The notes under the pieces are model-generated. The model searched no databases. It was not told the origin of the DNA and worked only from the letters and a program-made list of their open reading frames with translations. DNA of 64,000 nt from a virus: the IMG/VR virus record IMGVR_UViG_3300008267_005791, positions 1 to 64,000 of that record; one strand, written 5' to 3'. Each line of letters starts with the position of its first letter. Within the stretch, counting starts at the first letter, position 1. A program made the position numbers and the translations under genes. Below, one piece after another: positions 35,176 to 46,910 of this stretch.

Positions 35176-36288
35176 TTAAATTACATAAATTTGTCTTGGC
35201 ATTGCTCTAAATTTCAAAGACTTATTTAAATTCTCCGCTAATAAAGCTTCTCGTTCCATCATTTTATCAGGTCGTAATCTCTCCAATCTTAATTTTAATT
35301 CTTCTTCAAGTTTTGATTTTTCATCTGCACCTTCTGTAGCTAATGATGCGTAATCCATAGTTAATTCACTATCAGGTGTTTTAACATTTCCACTAAATTT
35401 ACCCCTAACTCTTGCTAATGTTTGTTTAACATATGCGGTAAACCATCTTCTAACCCATTGTTGAGCAGGGTTATTTAAATCAACCCAAGATATTTCCTCA
35501 AACGGAACATCAGAAGGAAGTGTAATAATATCAGGGTTCGCCTTTAAACATTTGTCTCTGTCTGCCGGACCAACATCATAATACCAATACCATACTTTAC
35601 CTCTAGTCATTGTTGCATTCCCAAAGTCAAATTTACCACCGGGCGTATTCATTATATGTAAAGCTTTTTTACCTTCAGGGAGTGCGGTAATTCTATATGT
35701 TAAATCACCAGCAATAATTCTTCTTTGAATATTAGTTTCTTGCATCCTCAATAATATGTCAAAGGCCGGCATCATAAAATATGACCCGGACATACCCATT
35801 TGTGAGAAACCACCAGACCCACCTAAACCACCGGCACCTAATGTTCCGAAAGTCCAAGGGTCAAACAATAAATTATTAAGTTCTGCAGGTGTAAACCATA
35901 AAACCTCATTAATTTCTCTATTCGCGGGGATTTCATATATTTGTTGATTACGTTCAAGTTGGATATAGTCTTTCTTAAGTTCCCAATCACCACCGGCTTG
36001 AAGTCCTACGATTTTAGAATAAGCGTAGGTATATCTTGTTTCAAAATCCAAACTTTTTGTTATGAAAGCTTTGGATAATGATTGAGTATCAAGATTAAGA
36101 TTATATAGTGATGTCCATTGAGATTCTATTAACCAATCTTGAACATATTGGGAATAATCACCGATAGATAATTCTAATAGACTATCCATCATTTCGTCTT
36201 CAATTTCTATTGAACGAAGTGGTGCTCCAAGTAAATGTTTAATTCTTGTGTATAACGCGGTTCTTTGAGGTTCTGGAATTACTGACAT
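35176..36288 (-). CDS. Neck protein, T4 gp13-like (tentative)
   Basis: 370 residues. Mixed alpha/beta with a Gly-rich segment (~147-167: GTLGAGGLGGSGGFSQMGMSGS). The C-terminal half, VWYWYYDVGPADRDKC ... VPFEEISWVDLNNPAQQWVRRWFTAYVKQTLARVRGKFSG, resembles the region of T4 gp13-type neck proteins where a Trp-rich helix precedes a conserved W/A-x-x-L-x-R/K-x-x-G-K-x-x-G end. A long charged coiled tail follows (EKSKLEEELKLRLERLRPDKMM). Context with a gp14/gp15-like run nearby supports a head-tail connector role. The assignment rests on pattern and context, not a clear motif. Confidence 0.5.
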   Translation of the reverse strand: MSVIPEPQRTALYTRIKHLLGAPLRSIEIEDEMMDSLLELSIGDYSQYVQDWLIESQWTSLYNLNLDTQSLSKAFITKSLDFETRYTYAYSKIVGLQAGGDWELKKDYIQLERNQQIYEIPANREINEVLWFTPAELNNLLFDPWTFGTLGAGGLGGSGGFSQMGMSGSYFMMPAFDILLRMQETNIQRRIIAGDLTYRITALPEGKKALHIMNTPGGKFDFGNATMTRGKVWYWYYDVGPADRDKCLKANPDIITLPSDVPFEEISWVDLNNPAQQWVRRWFTAYVKQTLARVRGKFSGNVKTPDSELTMDYASLATEGADEKSKLEEELKLRLERLRPDKMMEREALLAENLNKSLKFRAMPRQIYVI

Positions 36289-36309: not shown

Positions 36310-37848
36310 TCAATTTAATGAATAAATTAAATCTCCTTTAGGAAAAACATATTGTCCATCAACTATTTTTGAATTTTTATTTCTAAAAATTAAAACCTCT
36401 TGATTATTTTTGGTGAAAATTAACCAATCGGTATAATATTTTTTAACAGCCCCTGAACCAATAACAGTAATCTCTTCATCATTTGTTTTAATACTTGAAA
36501 AAGGTTTTATTTGACTACTTAATTTTCTACCATTTATAATAACTTCACAATCTATACCACCAATCATATCCTCTTTACCACCCAATTTACCAATGGCAAT
36601 AACATTGTCTTTTCCAAATTTTTTCTTTAAAATCTCAATAGTTTTATCTTCACGAGATTGTCCCCAAGCATCAGTTTGAGTTAAAACTTTCATAATGTTT
36701 TGGAATGTTGCTGAAGTTTGTTTGAATATTCTAAATCTATATTCATATAAGAAAATGAGTAATTTTTTAGTTTCCTCAATTTGTTCTAGTGGTTTTAAAC
36801 CAACAATCTTAATTTCAGGTGAGTTTGTAGATTTTAAAAATTTATTTGTGTCGTTAAGAAGAACACAGAAACAACTATAATTGGTGTTTAATTTATTTAA
36901 GACAGAACGACCATCTCTTTCTAAATCATAAACACCTGACATTTCACCTTTAGCATATTCCCCATACCCATAATAGTTATCCGGAAAAACTTCTTTAAGG
37001 ATGTGATTAATACCTTCCATAAAAATTTGTTTAATTTTCGGGTTAATATTAAAAACCATACGTATAGCTTCGTTTTCTTCTCTACTACATCTTTCTGATT
37101 TACCTTCGGTAAGTACAGATTTAAAATTTAATGATTCATTTAATTTAGTCTCAATTCTCATTGTATATAGTTTATTAACAAATTCCCAATTAACACATTT
37201 CCAAAAATTCTTAACATAGTCATTTTTTTTATTTCTATATTTTAAATAATAAGCGTGTTCCCATAAATCTAATCCTAATATTGGATAACCTCCGTCGTCT
37301 ATAATATTCATAAGAGGATTGTCTTGATTTTCTGTGGTTACAATTTTTAAGGTATTTCGTTTTGTTAAAACTAACCAAATCCACCCTGAACCAAATTTTT
37401 CTTGAGCAATTTCCTCAAACTTATTTTTAAACTGGACAAAGGTAGTAAAATCTTTTTTAATTTGTTTAATAATTTCACCATTTGGTGTTTGTCTTTTTGG
37501 GGTTAACATTTTCCAAAACAATGCGTGGTTAAAAGCTCCTCCGGCATTGTTCCTAATTGTCTTATCAAATCTACTAATTGATTTAATAATTTCTTCTAAT
37601 TCTAAATCACCGTAATCTTTCTTTTTAAGAGCGGAATTTAATTTATCAACATATCCTTTGTAGTGTTTGTTGTAATGGTAATCCATTGTTTCAGCATCAA
37701 TAAATTGTTTTAATGCTGAGTAGGAATAGGGTAATTTATCTATCCCTATTTTTTTCATCTCATTAATGAACATTTGTTGATTTTCATAGGTTTCAACTTT
37801 TTTTAGTTCTTCAGTTATGAGATTGATTTTTTCTTCAATCTTTTTCAT
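36310..37848 (-). CDS. Mn-type superoxide dismutase domain fused to a PD-(D/E)xK nuclease-like domain
   Basis: 512 residues. Residues ~36-228 are a Fe/Mn superoxide dismutase: metal ligands His58 (TMDYHYNKHYKGYV), His108 (NNAGGAFNHALFW), Asp194 and His198 (GLDLWEHAYYLKY), plus GSGWIWLVL and TTENQDNPLM. Gly at the 103-104 site with Gln175 fits the Mn-type active site. Residues ~230-255 form a junction (ETKLNESLNFKSVLTEGKSE). The C-terminal part (~255-512) holds a helical region, then REDKTIEILKKKFG, GGIDCEVIINGRKLSSQIKPFSS (Asp433, Gln446-x-Lys448) and YYTDWLIFT, an arrangement like PD-(D/E)xK nucleases with a Q-x-K variant. Why a phage would join these is unclear; virion or DNA-protection roles are possible. 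Confidence 0.7.
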   Translation of the reverse strand: MKKIEEKINLITEELKKVETYENQQMFINEMKKIGIDKLPYSYSALKQFIDAETMDYHYNKHYKGYVDKLNSALKKKDYGDLELEEIIKSISRFDKTIRNNAGGAFNHALFWKMLTPKRQTPNGEIIKQIKKDFTTFVQFKNKFEEIAQEKFGSGWIWLVLTKRNTLKIVTTENQDNPLMNIIDDGGYPILGLDLWEHAYYLKYRNKKNDYVKNFWKCVNWEFVNKLYTMRIETKLNESLNFKSVLTEGKSERCSREENEAIRMVFNINPKIKQIFMEGINHILKEVFPDNYYGYGEYAKGEMSGVYDLERDGRSVLNKLNTNYSCFCVLLNDTNKFLKSTNSPEIKIVGLKPLEQIEETKKLLIFLYEYRFRIFKQTSATFQNIMKVLTQTDAWGQSREDKTIEILKKKFGKDNVIAIGKLGGKEDMIGGIDCEVIINGRKLSSQIKPFSSIKTNDEEITVIGSGAVKKYYTDWLIFTKNNQEVLIFRNKNSKIVDGQYVFPKGDLIYSLN

Positions 37849-40048: not shown

Positions 40049-40553
40049 TAAAGTACCAATAACAAGAATAGGTAAGTTTTTCGGAGCCGAAGATTTCAAA
40101 TTAGAACAAGATTTTGGAACTGAATGGTTACACGGAGATATGAACTTTACGTTAGTTCTATATCGTGTTGATAGATATAAAACCAAGACCGATGATGTCT
40201 ATGGTGAGACCGTATCTGATGGTGTTAAATTCTTACCCCCGGTTGAGTTCAAAGGATATGTTCAAATTTTACCTCCGGAGAATAAATTTGTTGGGACATC
40301 AAGAATTGACCAATTTGAACCAGGTAATCTTAAAGTGTCGGTATATCAAAGAGATTTGGATGAATTGGAAATTGATATTAGTTTTGGTGATTACATCGGA
40401 TACTATGAAACGGAAGATAAAGTAAGATACTATACGGTGAATAATGATGGAAGGGTGACTTCTGATAATAAACACACAATAGGGGGGTATAAACCTTTTT
40501 ATCGTAGTATTATTGCTTCACCGGTAATGAATAATGAATTTAGAGGTCTATAA
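40041..40553 (+). CDS. Possible neck/head-completion protein (T4 gp14-like)
   Basis: 170 residues, mainly beta. LHGDMNFTLVLYRVDRYKT is followed by ETVSDGVKFLPPVEFKGYVQI and EIDISFGDYIGYYETEDKVRYYTVNNDG, then GGYKPFYRSIIASPV. The pattern 'D-x-I-x-Y...x-Y-x-V ... PFYR' parallels T4 gp14, where GDLIYFP and YDPFYQ are spaced in the same way. Length is shorter than gp14 (256). Position before the gp15-like and sheath genes supports a connector role. The last base of its TAA is the first base of the next ATG (TAATG). Confidence 0.4.
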   Translation: MTNKVPITRIGKFFGAEDFKLEQDFGTEWLHGDMNFTLVLYRVDRYKTKTDDVYGETVSDGVKFLPPVEFKGYVQILPPENKFVGTSRIDQFEPGNLKVSVYQRDLDELEIDISFGDYIGYYETEDKVRYYTVNNDGRVTSDNKHTIGGYKPFYRSIIASPVMNNEFRGL

Positions 40554-40942
40554 TGAAAATATTAATAACAGAAAATAAATTATATAGAACAATATATAAT
40601 TATCTTGAAGATACTTTTGATGTAAGTAACATAGATTATTTCCATCCAACCACATGGAATGATGATGAATATGATGATGAGGAAAACCCATATATACGAG
40701 AGTATTTTTACCATATATATGAAGGTGATTACGACCAAGATGGTGTTGCTTTTGTATATATTCAAAAGGAATATTATAGTGATGAACCTTCAAGTAAATC
40801 TTTTAGGGAAAAGACACCAATATTAATTGTTAATGATTATGAAAAATTAACCAATATGTTTGGAAGTTATTGGATAGAACCTATGAAAGAGTGGTTTAAA
40901 GATAACTTTGAGCTACCAGTAAAAACAATCGTAGCCGACTAA
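40553..40942 (+). CDS. MKILITE-family paralog 1, unknown function
   Basis: 129 residues. It starts MKILITENKLYRTIYNYLEDTF; the first 21 bases are identical in the next two genes. The body is acidic, and its C-terminal 55 residues (YYSDEPSSKSFREKTPIL ... MFGSYWIEPMKEWFKDNFELPVKTI) closely match paralog 2. It starts on a TAATG overlap. The I-T-E at residues 5-7 fits a T4-type prohead-protease site (I/L-x-E), as found in capsid-targeting peptides of T4 internal head proteins. A role inside the head is a hypothesis. Confidence 0.55.
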   Translation: MKILITENKLYRTIYNYLEDTFDVSNIDYFHPTTWNDDEYDDEENPYIREYFYHIYEGDYDQDGVAFVYIQKEYYSDEPSSKSFREKTPILIVNDYEKLTNMFGSYWIEPMKEWFKDNFELPVKTIVAD

Positions 40943-41346
40943 TGAAAATATTAATAACAGAAAGTAAATTATTTGATTCAATATATAAGTATATTGATGG
41001 TTATTTAGACTCAAATGAAATTGATTGGGTTTATGGTTCAATTTACGATTCGAAAAATTGGCGGGAAAATCCGGAAGATGAAAACCTTTTACATTTTTAT
41101 AAAGGTGGTACTTGGGCTGGTGAAGATTATTCTGATATTGTATTTAATCATCTTAATGTTGATTACTATAGCAATGAACCATCAAGTAAATCATTTAAAG
41201 ACAGGGCACCGATTGTAGAGGTAATGGGTGAATATGGTGAACATTTAGACACTATGTTTGGGAGTAATTGGTACGAACCTATGAAAAAATGGGTTCAAGA
41301 TAAATTTAATTTACCGGTTAAATCGGTATCAGCATATTACGAATAA
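40942..41346 (+). CDS. MKILITE-family paralog 2, unknown function
   Basis: 134 residues, the closest relative of the preceding gene: MKILITESKLFDSIYKYIDGYL at the start and YYSNEPSSKSFKDRAPIVEV ... MFGSNWYEPMKKWVQDKFNLPVKSV at the end. The pair clearly arose by tandem duplication and diverged mainly in the middle. Acidic (many Asp/Glu). TAATG overlaps at both ends. Same possible capsid-targeting N-terminus as its neighbours. Confidence 0.55.
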   Translation: MKILITESKLFDSIYKYIDGYLDSNEIDWVYGSIYDSKNWRENPEDENLLHFYKGGTWAGEDYSDIVFNHLNVDYYSNEPSSKSFKDRAPIVEVMGEYGEHLDTMFGSNWYEPMKKWVQDKFNLPVKSVSAYYE

Positions 41347-41780
41347 TGAAAATATTAATAACAGAATCTCAAGCAAAAAGATTATTTGAAATTTATTCAG
41401 ATAACGATTATATCGGTAAAAAAGTTATGGTGTATTATAACTTACACAAACACACTTTTTCGGTAACATACAAGGGTAGATTAATTTCACACTCCGATTA
41501 TGTTAAATTAGAAGATGTCGAATTTAGAGTTAGACAAGGCGGTAGAGAAAGAGTGGTTAGAGAAAAAAGTAAAAATGTACATTCATTTGTTATTGGAACT
41601 TTAATGGATTATTGTGAGTTCCCTTGTGAGAATTTACCAGAAGAACCTAACAATAATATTGTCACCTACAACCCATACAAGTATAATTCTTATGTTATGA
41701 AAGACACCGAAGAACCTATATTTCACGCCAATGAAGTGGAGATGATTAATTTAAAAAATAAAATTTTTATAACAAAATAA
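41346..41780 (+). CDS. MKILITE-family protein 3, unknown function
   Basis: 144 residues. It shares only the N-terminal MKILITES with the two upstream genes (21 identical bases from the ATG). The rest differs: a basic central region (KLEDVEFRVRQGGRERVVREKSK) and FCEFPCENLPEEP-like Cys/Pro sequence near the middle. A shared leader peptide on unrelated bodies suggests the N-terminus is a portable signal. TAATG overlap at the start; the next gene follows 2 bases after the stop. Confidence 0.5.
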   Translation: MKILITESQAKRLFEIYSDNDYIGKKVMVYYNLHKHTFSVTYKGRLISHSDYVKLEDVEFRVRQGGRERVVREKSKNVHSFVIGTLMDYCEFPCENLPEEPNNNIVTYNPYKYNSYVMKDTEEPIFHANEVEMINLKNKIFITK

Positions 41781-43106: not shown

Positions 43107-46100
43107 ATGGCATCAAACAGTAAAGTATTCGTATCTCCTGGAGTATATACTTCTGAAGTTGATTTAAGTTTCGTAGCCCAAAGTGTGGGTGTAACTACAT
43201 TAGGTATTGTCGGTGAAACCTTAAAAGGTCCAGCCTTTGAACCTATTTTTATACGAAATTTTGATGAATTCTCGGCGTATTTTGGAGGAACTTCCCCTGA
43301 AAAATTTATAAACACACAAATACCAAAATATGAGGCATCCTATATTGCTAAAGCATATTTACAACAATCTAATCAATTATTTGTAACTAGAGTTTTAGGT
43401 CTTTCAGGATATGATGCAGGTCCGTCTTGGTCAATCACAACAAAAGGAAATGTTGACCCAACCACAATAGACTTTTATTGTGAAGTTTCATCAACGGTTG
43501 ATTGTGTTGATAATTGTGATGTTTATCTAACAACATCATATACATACACTTTTTCAGGTTGTAATGATGATTTATCTTCTATTAGTGTAATAGATACAGA
43601 TTTACCTAATTACTTATTAGATAGGCTAGATTTACCTTATGAATTATTTGATGGTAGTATATCAACTCTTAGGTCAGATATTAACAATTTAATATTTAAT
43701 TCTATTAGTGGACAATCAGAAAACGGTATTTCATACTTTGGTACAATACCAACAAATGTGTACACCGGATTAACCTCTTATTCACCATCAACAAACGTGT
43801 TTGGAGTTGATAATGTTAGTTCAGATTTTTCTGATTATGCTGCGGCTCAAAACGACCCTTGGTATTATTCATTGTTTGATAATATTGGAAATGGTTCTTA
43901 TACGGGGTCATCTTTTTATAGTATTGTAGATTCGTTAGACCCAACATTTACCTCATCAACCTGTTCAACATTTTTTGAATTTAGTGTTGGTGGATATGTA
44001 TTGTCATTAGACAGCTTATCTTTATCAGGTGGAACGGATTATTCAGCAGGTAGTGGTACAACAACAACAGATGGTTATGGTGTTGGATTAACCGTTAATG
44101 TAACAGTTAATTCTGGTTCAGTAACAGGGGTTACAATTAACAATCCGGGAACAGGGTATCAAGTTGGTGATACAATTACTATAATACAAGGAGGTTCTGA
44201 AAATGACGCTCAAATTGTTATTTCGGATATTGATACAACAACAATTGGTAATATAAATTATAATACTTATAAGATAGATGTTATTGTTCCGGTTGGAACA
44301 GATTTATCAAACATTGTTTGTGGATTTGAAACTTGTGTTCCAGAAGGGAATGTAACAATTTCATCAACAATTCAAACAAGTGGTGAAACGGCTAACGATT
44401 TCTCTAGCGGATGTTTAGAATATAAAGTACTTTCTCAAGACGAATCAATAGAAACTACTTGGACTGTTTGTGTTCAAACAGAAGTACCTTGTAATGTTAA
44501 TGTTAGTGGAAACATTGGAACACCTAATACTGGAACAACAAAATCTTGTTATTCAGGAACGGTTTTTGGTGAAGTATTTGTTTATACAGGAACATCATAT
44601 ACAGATTTTGACGATTTAGTTATTGCAACACTTCGTTCAAGAGGTATCGCAACTTACGGTAATGATAACGGAGCTGTTTATGAGGTATCAGGTTTAACAG
44701 ATGTGTCAATGGATTGTACATCAATTTATTCAGGAGTAACTAAAAATCCATTCTCAACTTTTGGATTAAATATTACAAATAAAGACGGTGAACAATATTT
44801 CTTTGAAACTTCGTTTTCTAATTCTGATTCTAAATATATTAGTAAAGTGTTTGGTTCATCTAATTTTTCAAAATCAAGAACAACAGTTCCATTATTTGTA
44901 GAAGAAAGATTTCAAACATTATTAACATACGGATATAGAAAAGGTTACATTAGAGGTTTAAATTGTGAATTAACTGCTTTACCAAACGCAAGACAGGGTG
45001 TTGACCCAACATCTATCGCTTGGTACTTAGAAAAATATCAATCACCAACATCCCCATGGGTTGTGTCTGAATTAAGAGGTAATAAAGTTTATAACTTATT
45101 TAAATTCACAACAATTGCTGATGGTGAAACTGCTAATACAGAAGTTAAAATATCTATAGCAAATATTTCATTTAATAATGGAACATTTGATGTGTTAGTT
45201 AGAGATTTTTTCGATTCAGACAGTGCACCTGTTGTTCTTGAAAAATTCACAAATTGTAATATGAATCCTAATGATAATTCATTTGTGGCTAAGAAAATTG
45301 GTACTATGGATGGAGAATACGAATTGAATTCTAAATATGTTATGTTAGAACTTAATGAGGATGCTCCAATAGATGCACTTCCTTGTGGATTTTTAGGGTT
45401 TAATTCTAGAGATTACTCAGGTGTTAAATCACCATTCCCTATTATAAAAACTAAATATGATTACCCTGGTGAGGTTGTTTATAACCCCCCATTTGGATTA
45501 GGTTCGGGAGACGATGACGCAACTAGAAGTGGTGGTGATAATGTTAGAAGAACTTATCTTGGTATATCAGATAGTATTGGTATTGATGCTGATTTCTTCG
45601 GTTATAAAGGTAAACAACTTCCTTTAGACGTTTGTAATGATAGTACAGGTGATGAATGGTCAACTAGAACTAAAGGTTTCCATATGGATAAAGACGCTAA
45701 TAGTATCTTAATCCCTAATACTTTTGCAACAAGTGGTACACCGGCATTCTATGTTGGGGACGCAACATTCACAAAAGACCCTGATAACGAATCAAGTCCT
45801 TATTATAGACTATTTTCTCGTAAATTCAGTTTCCTTGTTCAAGGAGGTTTTGACGGGTGGGATATCTATAGAGAACACAGAACAAATGGGGATACATTTA
45901 TATTAGGTAGAAATGGTTACTTACACGGTTCTTGTCCTTCTATTAAATACCCTACAGCAACAGGTTGGGGAGCATTTAAACAAATCTCAGTTGGAGACAA
46001 CACTCAAGATTATGGTAACACTGATTATTACGCATATAAATTAGGTCAACAAACTTTTTCTAATCCTGAGGCGGTTAACATCAATCTTTTTGTAACTCCA

Positions 46101-46910
46101 GGTATTGATTATCTTAACCATTCAGATTTAGTTGAAACGGCTATTGATATGATTGAGAACGATAGAGCGGATTCGTTGTATATTACAACAACACCTGATT
46201 ACAATATGTTTGTACCATCTACCGGAGACCAATTAGATTTAATTTACCCACAAGAAGCTGTAGATAATTTAGACCAAACAGGCATAGATTCAAACTATAC
46301 AGCAACTTACTACCCTTGGGTATTAACGAGAGATAGTGTTAATAACACTCAAATCTACTTACCGGCAACGGCTGAGGTTACAAGAAATTTAGCGTTAACT
46401 GATAACATTGCTTTCCCTTGGTTCGCTGCGGCGGGTTACACAAGAGGTATTGTAAATGCGATTAAAGCGAGACGTAAACTAACTCAAGAAGATAGAGATA
46501 CACTTTATCAAGGTCGTATTAACCCAATTGCTACTTTCTCTGATGTTGGTACTGTAATTTGGGGTAATAAAACTCTTCAAATAAGACAATCGGCTTTAGA
46601 TAGAATTAATGTTAGAAGATTATTACTTCAAGCTCGTAAATTGATTTCTGCGGTATCTGTAAGATTATTGTTTGAACAAAACGATGCTAAAGTAAGACAA
46701 GATTTCTTGGACGCTGTTAATCCGATTTTAGATTCTATCAGAAGAGATAGAGGTTTATATGATTTCCGTGTAACAGTATCATCAGATGCTGCTGATTTAG
46801 ACAGAAATCAAATGACAGGTAAGATTTATATCAAACCAACTAAATCATTAGAATTTATAGATATTACATTCTATATTACTCCAACCGGAGCTTCTTTTGA
46901 GAATATATAA
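43107..46910 (+). CDS. Tail sheath protein (gp18-like), unusually long
   Basis: 1267 residues, about twice T4 gp18 (659). N-terminus: VFVSPGVYTSEVDLSFVAQS, TTLGIVGETLKGPAFEPIFI and FDEFSAYFGG, the classic sheath start. C-terminal ~220 residues: YPWVLTRDSVNNTQIYLPAT, NIAFPWFAAAGYTRGIVNAI, RINPIATFSDVGTVIWGNKT, INVRRLLLQARKLISAV and a final beta strand hairpin (KSLEFIDITFYITPTG), the conserved contractile-sheath core. Between ~110 and ~520 lies an insertion containing Cys pairs and a Gly-rich beta module (~308-361: AGSGTTTTDGYGVGLTVNVT ... GTGYQVGDTITI). It probably protrudes from the sheath surface. Sheath subunits form the contractile outer tail. Confidence 0.88.
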   Translation: MASNSKVFVSPGVYTSEVDLSFVAQSVGVTTLGIVGETLKGPAFEPIFIRNFDEFSAYFGGTSPEKFINTQIPKYEASYIAKAYLQQSNQLFVTRVLGLSGYDAGPSWSITTKGNVDPTTIDFYCEVSSTVDCVDNCDVYLTTSYTYTFSGCNDDLSSISVIDTDLPNYLLDRLDLPYELFDGSISTLRSDINNLIFNSISGQSENGISYFGTIPTNVYTGLTSYSPSTNVFGVDNVSSDFSDYAAAQNDPWYYSLFDNIGNGSYTGSSFYSIVDSLDPTFTSSTCSTFFEFSVGGYVLSLDSLSLSGGTDYSAGSGTTTTDGYGVGLTVNVTVNSGSVTGVTINNPGTGYQVGDTITIIQGGSENDAQIVISDIDTTTIGNINYNTYKIDVIVPVGTDLSNIVCGFETCVPEGNVTISSTIQTSGETANDFSSGCLEYKVLSQDESIETTWTVCVQTEVPCNVNVSGNIGTPNTGTTKSCYSGTVFGEVFVYTGTSYTDFDDLVIATLRSRGIATYGNDNGAVYEVSGLTDVSMDCTSIYSGVTKNPFSTFGLNITNKDGEQYFFETSFSNSDSKYISKVFGSSNFSKSRTTVPLFVEERFQTLLTYGYRKGYIRGLNCELTALPNARQGVDPTSIAWYLEKYQSPTSPWVVSELRGNKVYNLFKFTTIADGETANTEVKISIANISFNNGTFDVLVRDFFDSDSAPVVLEKFTNCNMNPNDNSFVAKKIGTMDGEYELNSKYVMLELNEDAPIDALPCGFLGFNSRDYSGVKSPFPIIKTKYDYPGEVVYNPPFGLGSGDDDATRSGGDNVRRTYLGISDSIGIDADFFGYKGKQLPLDVCNDSTGDEWSTRTKGFHMDKDANSILIPNTFATSGTPAFYVGDATFTKDPDNESSPYYRLFSRKFSFLVQGGFDGWDIYREHRTNGDTFILGRNGYLHGSCPSIKYPTATGWGAFKQISVGDNTQDYGNTDYYAYKLGQQTFSNPEAVNINLFVTPGIDYLNHSDLVETAIDMIENDRADSLYITTTPDYNMFVPSTGDQLDLIYPQEAVDNLDQTGIDSNYTATYYPWVLTRDSVNNTQIYLPATAEVTRNLALTDNIAFPWFAAAGYTRGIVNAIKARRKLTQEDRDTLYQGRINPIATFSDVGTVIWGNKTLQIRQSALDRINVRRLLLQARKLISAVSVRLLFEQNDAKVRQDFLDAVNPILDSIRRDRGLYDFRVTVSSDAADLDRNQMTGKIYIKPTKSLEFIDITFYITPTGASFENI

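Follow-up and report, generated by a model that had tools for sequence, protein, structure and literature searches.

An open reading frame in the window, the 64,000-nucleotide stretch of viral DNA analysed here (positions 1 to 64,000 of IMG/VR record IMGVR_UViG_3300008267_005791), raised the question of why a phage would join a superoxide dismutase (SOD) to a nuclease-like domain in one polypeptide. The original prediction placed this fusion at 36310-37848, and the frame was recovered at exactly these coordinates, on the minus strand, with a length of 512 amino acids. It was further proposed that the protein was packaged in the virion and cut into an antioxidant enzyme and a nuclease. That proposal gained support and was extended by two more sites, at E30 and E238. 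Based on the evidence below, the protein is probably a head-interior precursor that is cleaved into a SOD and a nuclease during head maturation and ejected together with the DNA. The positions of all features are collected in Table 1.

The two halves of the protein

The N-terminal half was matched by two Pfam families, Sod_Fe_N (1.5e-23, residues 36-115) followed by Sod_Fe_C (1.6e-38, residues 122-226), both above the cut-offs. Its best match in the PDB was the bacterial MnSOD 1y67 (E=5.8e-56). An intact Mn-type SOD spanned residues 36-229. The ligands His58, His108, Asp194 and His198 and the Mn-type Gln175, which had been read as intact, did not vary in any of the 54 non-identical full-length relatives, and ligand loss was seen in no relative with an SOD half. 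Judged by its sequence, the SOD half is intact and under strong purifying selection (pN/pS of the module 0.11-0.18). A decayed SOD was ruled out by the invariant ligands together with this ratio.

The C-terminal half (residues 249-512) was modelled with AlphaFold2 on a 29-sequence alignment, resulting in a pLDDT of 91.5 and a pTM of 0.86. When the model was compared with the PDB by Foldseek, the top fold matches were I-Ssp6803I (probability up to 0.99) and the Hjc resolvases (up to 0.93), the entries matched being 2ost, 4tkd and 2wcw. The E-values of these fold matches were weak (0.03-0.1), probably because the nuclease core makes up only the C-terminal part of the domain. As to fold, the suggested C-terminal PD-(D/E)xK nuclease was borne out by AlphaFold2 and Foldseek, the model showing a PD-(D/E)xK fold rather than a domain devoid of such a core. 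The D...QxK pattern that had been pointed out also held, as D433, Q446 and K448 were invariant in all full-length relatives. E400 was invariant in these relatives too, and all four residues were likewise invariant in the relatives without SOD. From the alignments, E400, D433, Q446 and K448 appear to be the residues of the PD-(D/E)xK core.

The N-terminal ~150 residues of the nuclease domain were helical, and no known match was found for this part. It contains GIYDLExxGRSVINKLNTNY, the most conserved motif of the nuclease family. No Pfam family covered the nuclease domain. A search of its sequence against the PDB and Pfam gave nothing useful and no match to a solved nuclease, and PHROGs, searched with the whole protein, gave no family.

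The lack of a Pfam family and of a sequence match to a solved nuclease, as well as the Gln in place of the acidic residue of the xK pair, would be consistent with a protein that is packaged and cut and whose C-domain, a PD-(D/E)xK relative, has a structural or DNA-binding role and does not cleave. This was considered quite unlikely, since E-D-QxK was invariant across homologues of 43-94% identity, D...QxK was present in a paralogous family as well, and the top fold match was a homing endonuclease. In the preferred reading, this half would be an active nuclease. A homing endonuclease of an I-Ssp6803I-like mobile element was ruled out, as each of 15 phage records had just one copy of the gene, with no intron or intein context. 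The nuclease frame was free-standing, kept the same leader and architecture in its relatives, and had only the fold in common with I-Ssp6803I.

Table 1. Features of the SOD-nuclease locus and of related genes (window positions, unless a contig is named).
Feature	Position	Strand	Basis
Downstream co-oriented gene, T4-type head-tail adaptor (neck)	35176..36288	minus	phrog_211 head-tail adaptor Ad2, 2.8e-10
SOD-nuclease precursor gene, 512 aa	36310..37848	minus	ORF and translation; full-length in about 80 IMG/VR contigs
PD-(D/E)xK nuclease module (predicted), residues 249-512	36313..37104	minus	AlphaFold2 and Foldseek
Nuclease core Gln446-x-Lys448 (putative)	36505..36513	minus	invariant
Nuclease core Asp433 (GGID) (putative)	36550..36552	minus	invariant
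Nuclease core Glu400 (putative), helix ahead of core sheet	36649..36651	minus	invariant
Ten-residue spacer 239-248, L-N-E238 to L-T-E248, predicted twin prohead-protease sites	37105..37134	minus	invariance; low model confidence (flexible)
Mn-type superoxide dismutase module, residues 31-238 (208 aa)	37135..37758	minus	Pfam, PDB, invariant ligands, pN/pS
SOD ligand His198	37255..37257	minus	invariant 54/54
SOD ligand Asp194	37267..37269	minus	invariant 54/54
Gln175, Mn-type outer-sphere glutamine	37324..37326	minus	invariant 54/54
SOD ligand His108	37525..37527	minus	invariant 54/54
SOD ligand His58	37675..37677	minus	invariant 54/54
Leader, residues 1-30, ending with the invariant [L/I]xE site F-I-N-E30/M	37759..37848	minus	E30 invariant, P3 Leu/Ile 54/54
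TATTTATA, candidate promoter element of the late type, beginning 27 nt ahead of the start codon	37868..37875	minus	sequence read
Protein starting MKILITE/S, L5 gp82-like domain	41346..41780	plus	Pfam PF25735, 7.4e-31
Second-family members	L056:1848-3338, L036:2156-3637, L042:2123-3628	minus	MKxxITE-type leader

Sites at the module borders and the prohead protease

Three invariant (I/L)-x-E sites were found in the protein, namely F-I-N-E30/M, L-N-E238/S and L-T-E248/G, where the slash marks the predicted cut. The L-T-E site between the two halves, which had been suggested as a candidate site of a T4-type prohead protease, was present and its Glu248 was invariant. E30, E238 and E248 remained constant amid otherwise variable leader and linker segments. 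P3 was hydrophobic in 54 of 54 relatives (Leu or Ile, at E238 also Met or Val), and P2 of the three sites drifted mainly among N, T, S and D. Six other glutamates were near-invariant; P3 was acidic or Asn in four of them, mixed in E400 and Leu in E197. The linker twin site was kept in 95 and the leader site in all of the 96 distinct complete proteins, counting two that read LLTE/MKNIGI. Cuts at the three sites are predicted to bracket the SOD exactly (31-238, a SOD of normal size), to leave a spacer of 10 residues and to free the nuclease (249-512). The predicted cuts coincided with the domain borders and fell in or beside the segments of the full-length model with pLDDT <50 (residues 22-46 and 234-246).

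The contig of the window itself (71 kb, partial) held neither a protease nor a capsid gene, and the link to both runs through relatives. A relative of 322,477 b, whose precursor was 94% identical to the protein of the window, encodes a T4-type prohead protease (Peptidase_S77, 7.9e-25), and the gene for a gp23-type capsid protein lies a few genes away. The two genes were found in this 322-kb relative and in one other phage. The capsid protein of the 322-kb relative carries an N-terminal segment of ~60 residues ending in SFLINE/A, just ahead of the part that aligned to mature gp23, and this end was conserved in a second phage. The T4 capsid protein is cut at residue 65 and the cut is predicted here at residue 60, a position that the alignment does not fix exactly. 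Several observations thus supported the suggested cleavage at L-T-E: the site is invariant, sites of its kind lie at the other SOD borders, the near-identical phage has a capsid propeptide ending in this motif as well as a Peptidase_S77 gene, and in T4 gp21 cuts Alt at ITE-6 and LTE-619 (PMC5694885). The (I/L)xE motif is likely a prohead-protease site. The motif is short, which counts against this reading.

In the 322-kb relative, the pattern [IL][TNS]E occurred within the first 16 residues of 48 of the 319 proteins, compared with 14.2 +/- 3.6 in 1000 shuffles (maximum 26). Many of the carriers had MK-x-x-ITE-S leaders, and the N-terminal motif in about 48 proteins possibly marks the proteins that are packaged. 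Pairs of sites separated by a few residues recurred at N-termini and in a 484-aa protein adjoining the capsid gene, which is likely the scaffold. It was also observed that three consecutive small proteins on the plus strand of the window (40553-40942, 40942-41346 and 41346-41780) all start with MKILITE[N/S].

The (I/L)xE elements could instead be peptides that target the protein to the prohead core or dock it there, the protein being packaged uncut or cut only at the leader and the fused enzyme being delivered. We regarded this as very unlikely. The propeptides of packaged T4 proteins are removed, which argues against it, and it would be hard to see why the internal pair E238/E248 should be invariant in an uncut protein. 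Its merit lies in the wide spread of N-terminal (I/L)xE leaders in the 322-kb relative and in the capsid-targeting propeptides of 10-20 residues known in T4 (PMC9026906, PMC5694885). Cleavage at all three sites remained the preferred reading.

The gene is preceded by TATTTATA, which is likely a late promoter element, 'late' being deduced from its position only. In the 322-kb relative (loci L152-L168), 47 genes had TATTTATA within less than 80 nt on their upstream side, against 4.4 expected, and in most cases the distance to the start codon was 11-29 nt. The SOD-nuclease gene, the prohead protease, the likely scaffold and a neck gene were among the 47. In this phage, (I/L)xE leaders were over-represented among the genes preceded by TATTTATA (Fisher p=1.2e-4). 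TATTTATA reads as the reverse complement of TATAAATA of T4 and stands upstream of several other genes of the window. The T4 late promoter TATAAATA itself was rejected as a candidate, as it occurred in the window at chance level and TATTTATA was informative instead.

Tail and baseplate genes were found near the SOD-nuclease gene. A tail sheath protein of 1267 aa is encoded at 43107-46910 (plus strand), and the known sheath matched only its last ~310 residues. Positions 65-21862 hold a cluster of glycosyltransferases (GT1, GT9, GlcNAc, GT25-like) with large repeat and Fib_succ_major proteins, which suggests that surface structures are glycosylated and perhaps that the host is one of the Bacteroidota.

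Distribution and modular changes

A search of IMG/VR with the whole protein returned 80 relatives, 54-94% identical and nearly all full-length with the same architecture. The fusion was therefore recurrent in other phages, where it had been proposed to be sought. When the nuclease domain served as the query, 536 related contigs were found, and in most of them it was joined to SOD. The domain was found in none of 50,697 phage records, which cover the cultured phages, and was absent from the GTDB species genomes at the sensitivity used. Hence, the clade that carries it is large and uncultured; it is also T4-like. A chance or one-off fusion was ruled out by the about 80 full-length relatives and the 536 contigs, an assembly artefact by the same fusion in many independent metagenomes, and a host gene or bacterial contamination by the absence of the nuclease domain from GTDB at that sensitivity.

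No literature on a phage SOD-nuclease fusion was found in the searches made. In the model of the BFVD entry A0A6J5L953, a 501-aa 'superoxide dismutase' of an uncultured Caudovirales phage, the nuclease domain was present as well (TMq 0.91, 35% identity). This entry was deposited under the SOD name only and its second domain was left unnamed; thus the fusion was already in the databases under that name.

Stand-alone versions of the nuclease (277-309 aa) were found without SOD, and the leader with its [L/I]xE site was retained in these homologues. One such group reads ...SINE/MKKIEIEKL-KSIISE/GKSERC, running from leader to spacer with no SOD in between and retaining the two outer sites. In the nuclease-domain tree, rooted at the midpoint, SOD-less forms lay inside SOD-bearing groups and required at least 2 separate changes on well-supported branches. 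We infer that SOD was lost at least twice, rather than gained, and that the nuclease and the leader with its site stayed. The possibility that SOD-less phages keep a SOD elsewhere was ruled out, as none was found in the eight SOD-less contigs searched, including those of 318 kb and 308 kb. A 287-aa SOD version was also noticed (L329:2911-3774, plus strand); its C-terminal part past the linker does not match the nuclease, and the nuclease half was possibly lost or frameshifted.

These changes bear on a further alternative, in which a bifunctional enzyme is made in the cytoplasm during infection and stays uncut, with the SOD serving the nuclease as a redox guard or as a scaffold for dimerisation and the (I/L)xE elements as helix-capping or linker features. 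SOD proteins are dimers or tetramers, which would suit such a role, both domains are kept together in most relatives, and the PA5oct group and Vibrio phage 2.275.O have SODs without the nuclease half. The sequences of the two halves agree with an uncut cytoplasmic enzyme; the invariant glutamates at the borders and the leader and site that are kept after SOD loss do not. SOD was lost at least twice, the nuclease persisting with its leader and an [L/I]xE site, and the three sites flank the modules and agree with the end of the capsid propeptide. Therefore, this alternative was judged unlikely, and a precursor cut in the head was retained.

In a second family, of 471-501 aa and from the same neighbourhood, an L5-gp82-like domain is followed by twin VxE/IxE sites and then by a homologue of the SOD-linked nuclease (hhalign probability 96.9%). 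The nuclease has thus been joined to another module via twin sites twice. The protein at 41346-41780 is the homologue of the gp82-like domain in the window. Most of the second-family proteins listed in Table 1 also carry a zinc-ribbon-like Cys motif. It is evenly balanced whether a whole clade of large T4-like phages uses head-cargo polyproteins, in which enzymes joined by twin protease sites are packed as one chain, cut in the prohead and delivered together; the SOD-nuclease and the gp82-domain-nuclease would then be two cases out of dozens of proteins with an (I/L)xE tag.

Proposed role and comparison with known systems

We proposed that the full 512-aa protein would be made late and would co-assemble with the scaffold in the prohead. 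The 30-residue leader and the 10-residue spacer, each ending in an (I/L)-x-E site, would serve as capsid-targeting and cleavage elements. A T4-type prohead protease would cut after E30, E238 and E248, resulting in the release of a free Mn-type SOD (31-238) and a free PD-(D/E)xK nuclease (249-512), both of which would remain in the mature head and be ejected with the DNA into the bacterium. The SOD may then clear superoxide, either near the entering genome or inside the cell that has just been infected, and the nuclease may act on DNA at the start of infection, be it host DNA, competitor DNA or branched DNA. A role in anti-defence or DNA protection, which had been offered as an alternative, may also be conceivable. 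An active nuclease packed beside the genome needs a safeguard, and this counts against packaging.

If this reading is true, an antioxidant enzyme and a nuclease, derived from one precursor cut in the head, are delivered by phages at a fixed ratio along with their DNA, which would suggest oxidative stress as an early barrier to infection. It would also reveal a natural way to load two enzymes into one phage head. If the polyprotein reading is true, the injected proteome could be read from sequence, and there would be a rule for listing which proteins a widespread, uncultured phage clade injects.

The SOD half shares with the Fe/Mn SOD family (SodA type) both Pfam domains, all ligands, the Mn-type Gln and the NQDNPLM and WEHAYYL motifs, and differs in being joined to a leader and a nuclease. 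Cellular SODs (Sphingobacterium, Halomonas and others) were 39-48% identical to it in a pattern-limited scan. The PA5oct-like phages and Vibrio phage 2.275.O are also large phages that code for SOD, but the matches span the SOD part only, at 28-30% identity; the nuclease half was searched for in these records and none was detected. The nuclease half shares the core fold of its model and the E...D...QxK pattern with I-Ssp6803I and the Hjc Holliday-junction resolvases. It has no detectable sequence similarity to them and contains the extra helical N-terminal part of ~150 residues, for which there is no Pfam family.

A SOD borne in the virus particle, as would be the case here, is known from the Cu,Zn-SOD of Megavirus (PMC9405923). 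That enzyme has another SOD fold (Cu,Zn), belongs to a eukaryotic virus and is without a nuclease. By analogy, giant eukaryotic viruses with SOD in their virions are a precedent for the idea, in a different system. The closest parallel in the head itself was drawn with Alt and IPI-III of T4, which carry a capsid-targeting sequence and are cut by gp21. The phage precursor differs from them in holding two unrelated enzymes, a SOD and a nuclease, with predicted cleavage sites between them, and in that the contig of the window lacks a protease gene. What it shares with Alt and IPI-III is a short propeptide ending in (I/L)-x-E, a presumed enzyme cargo and, through its relatives, a Peptidase_S77 prohead protease and a gp23-type capsid.
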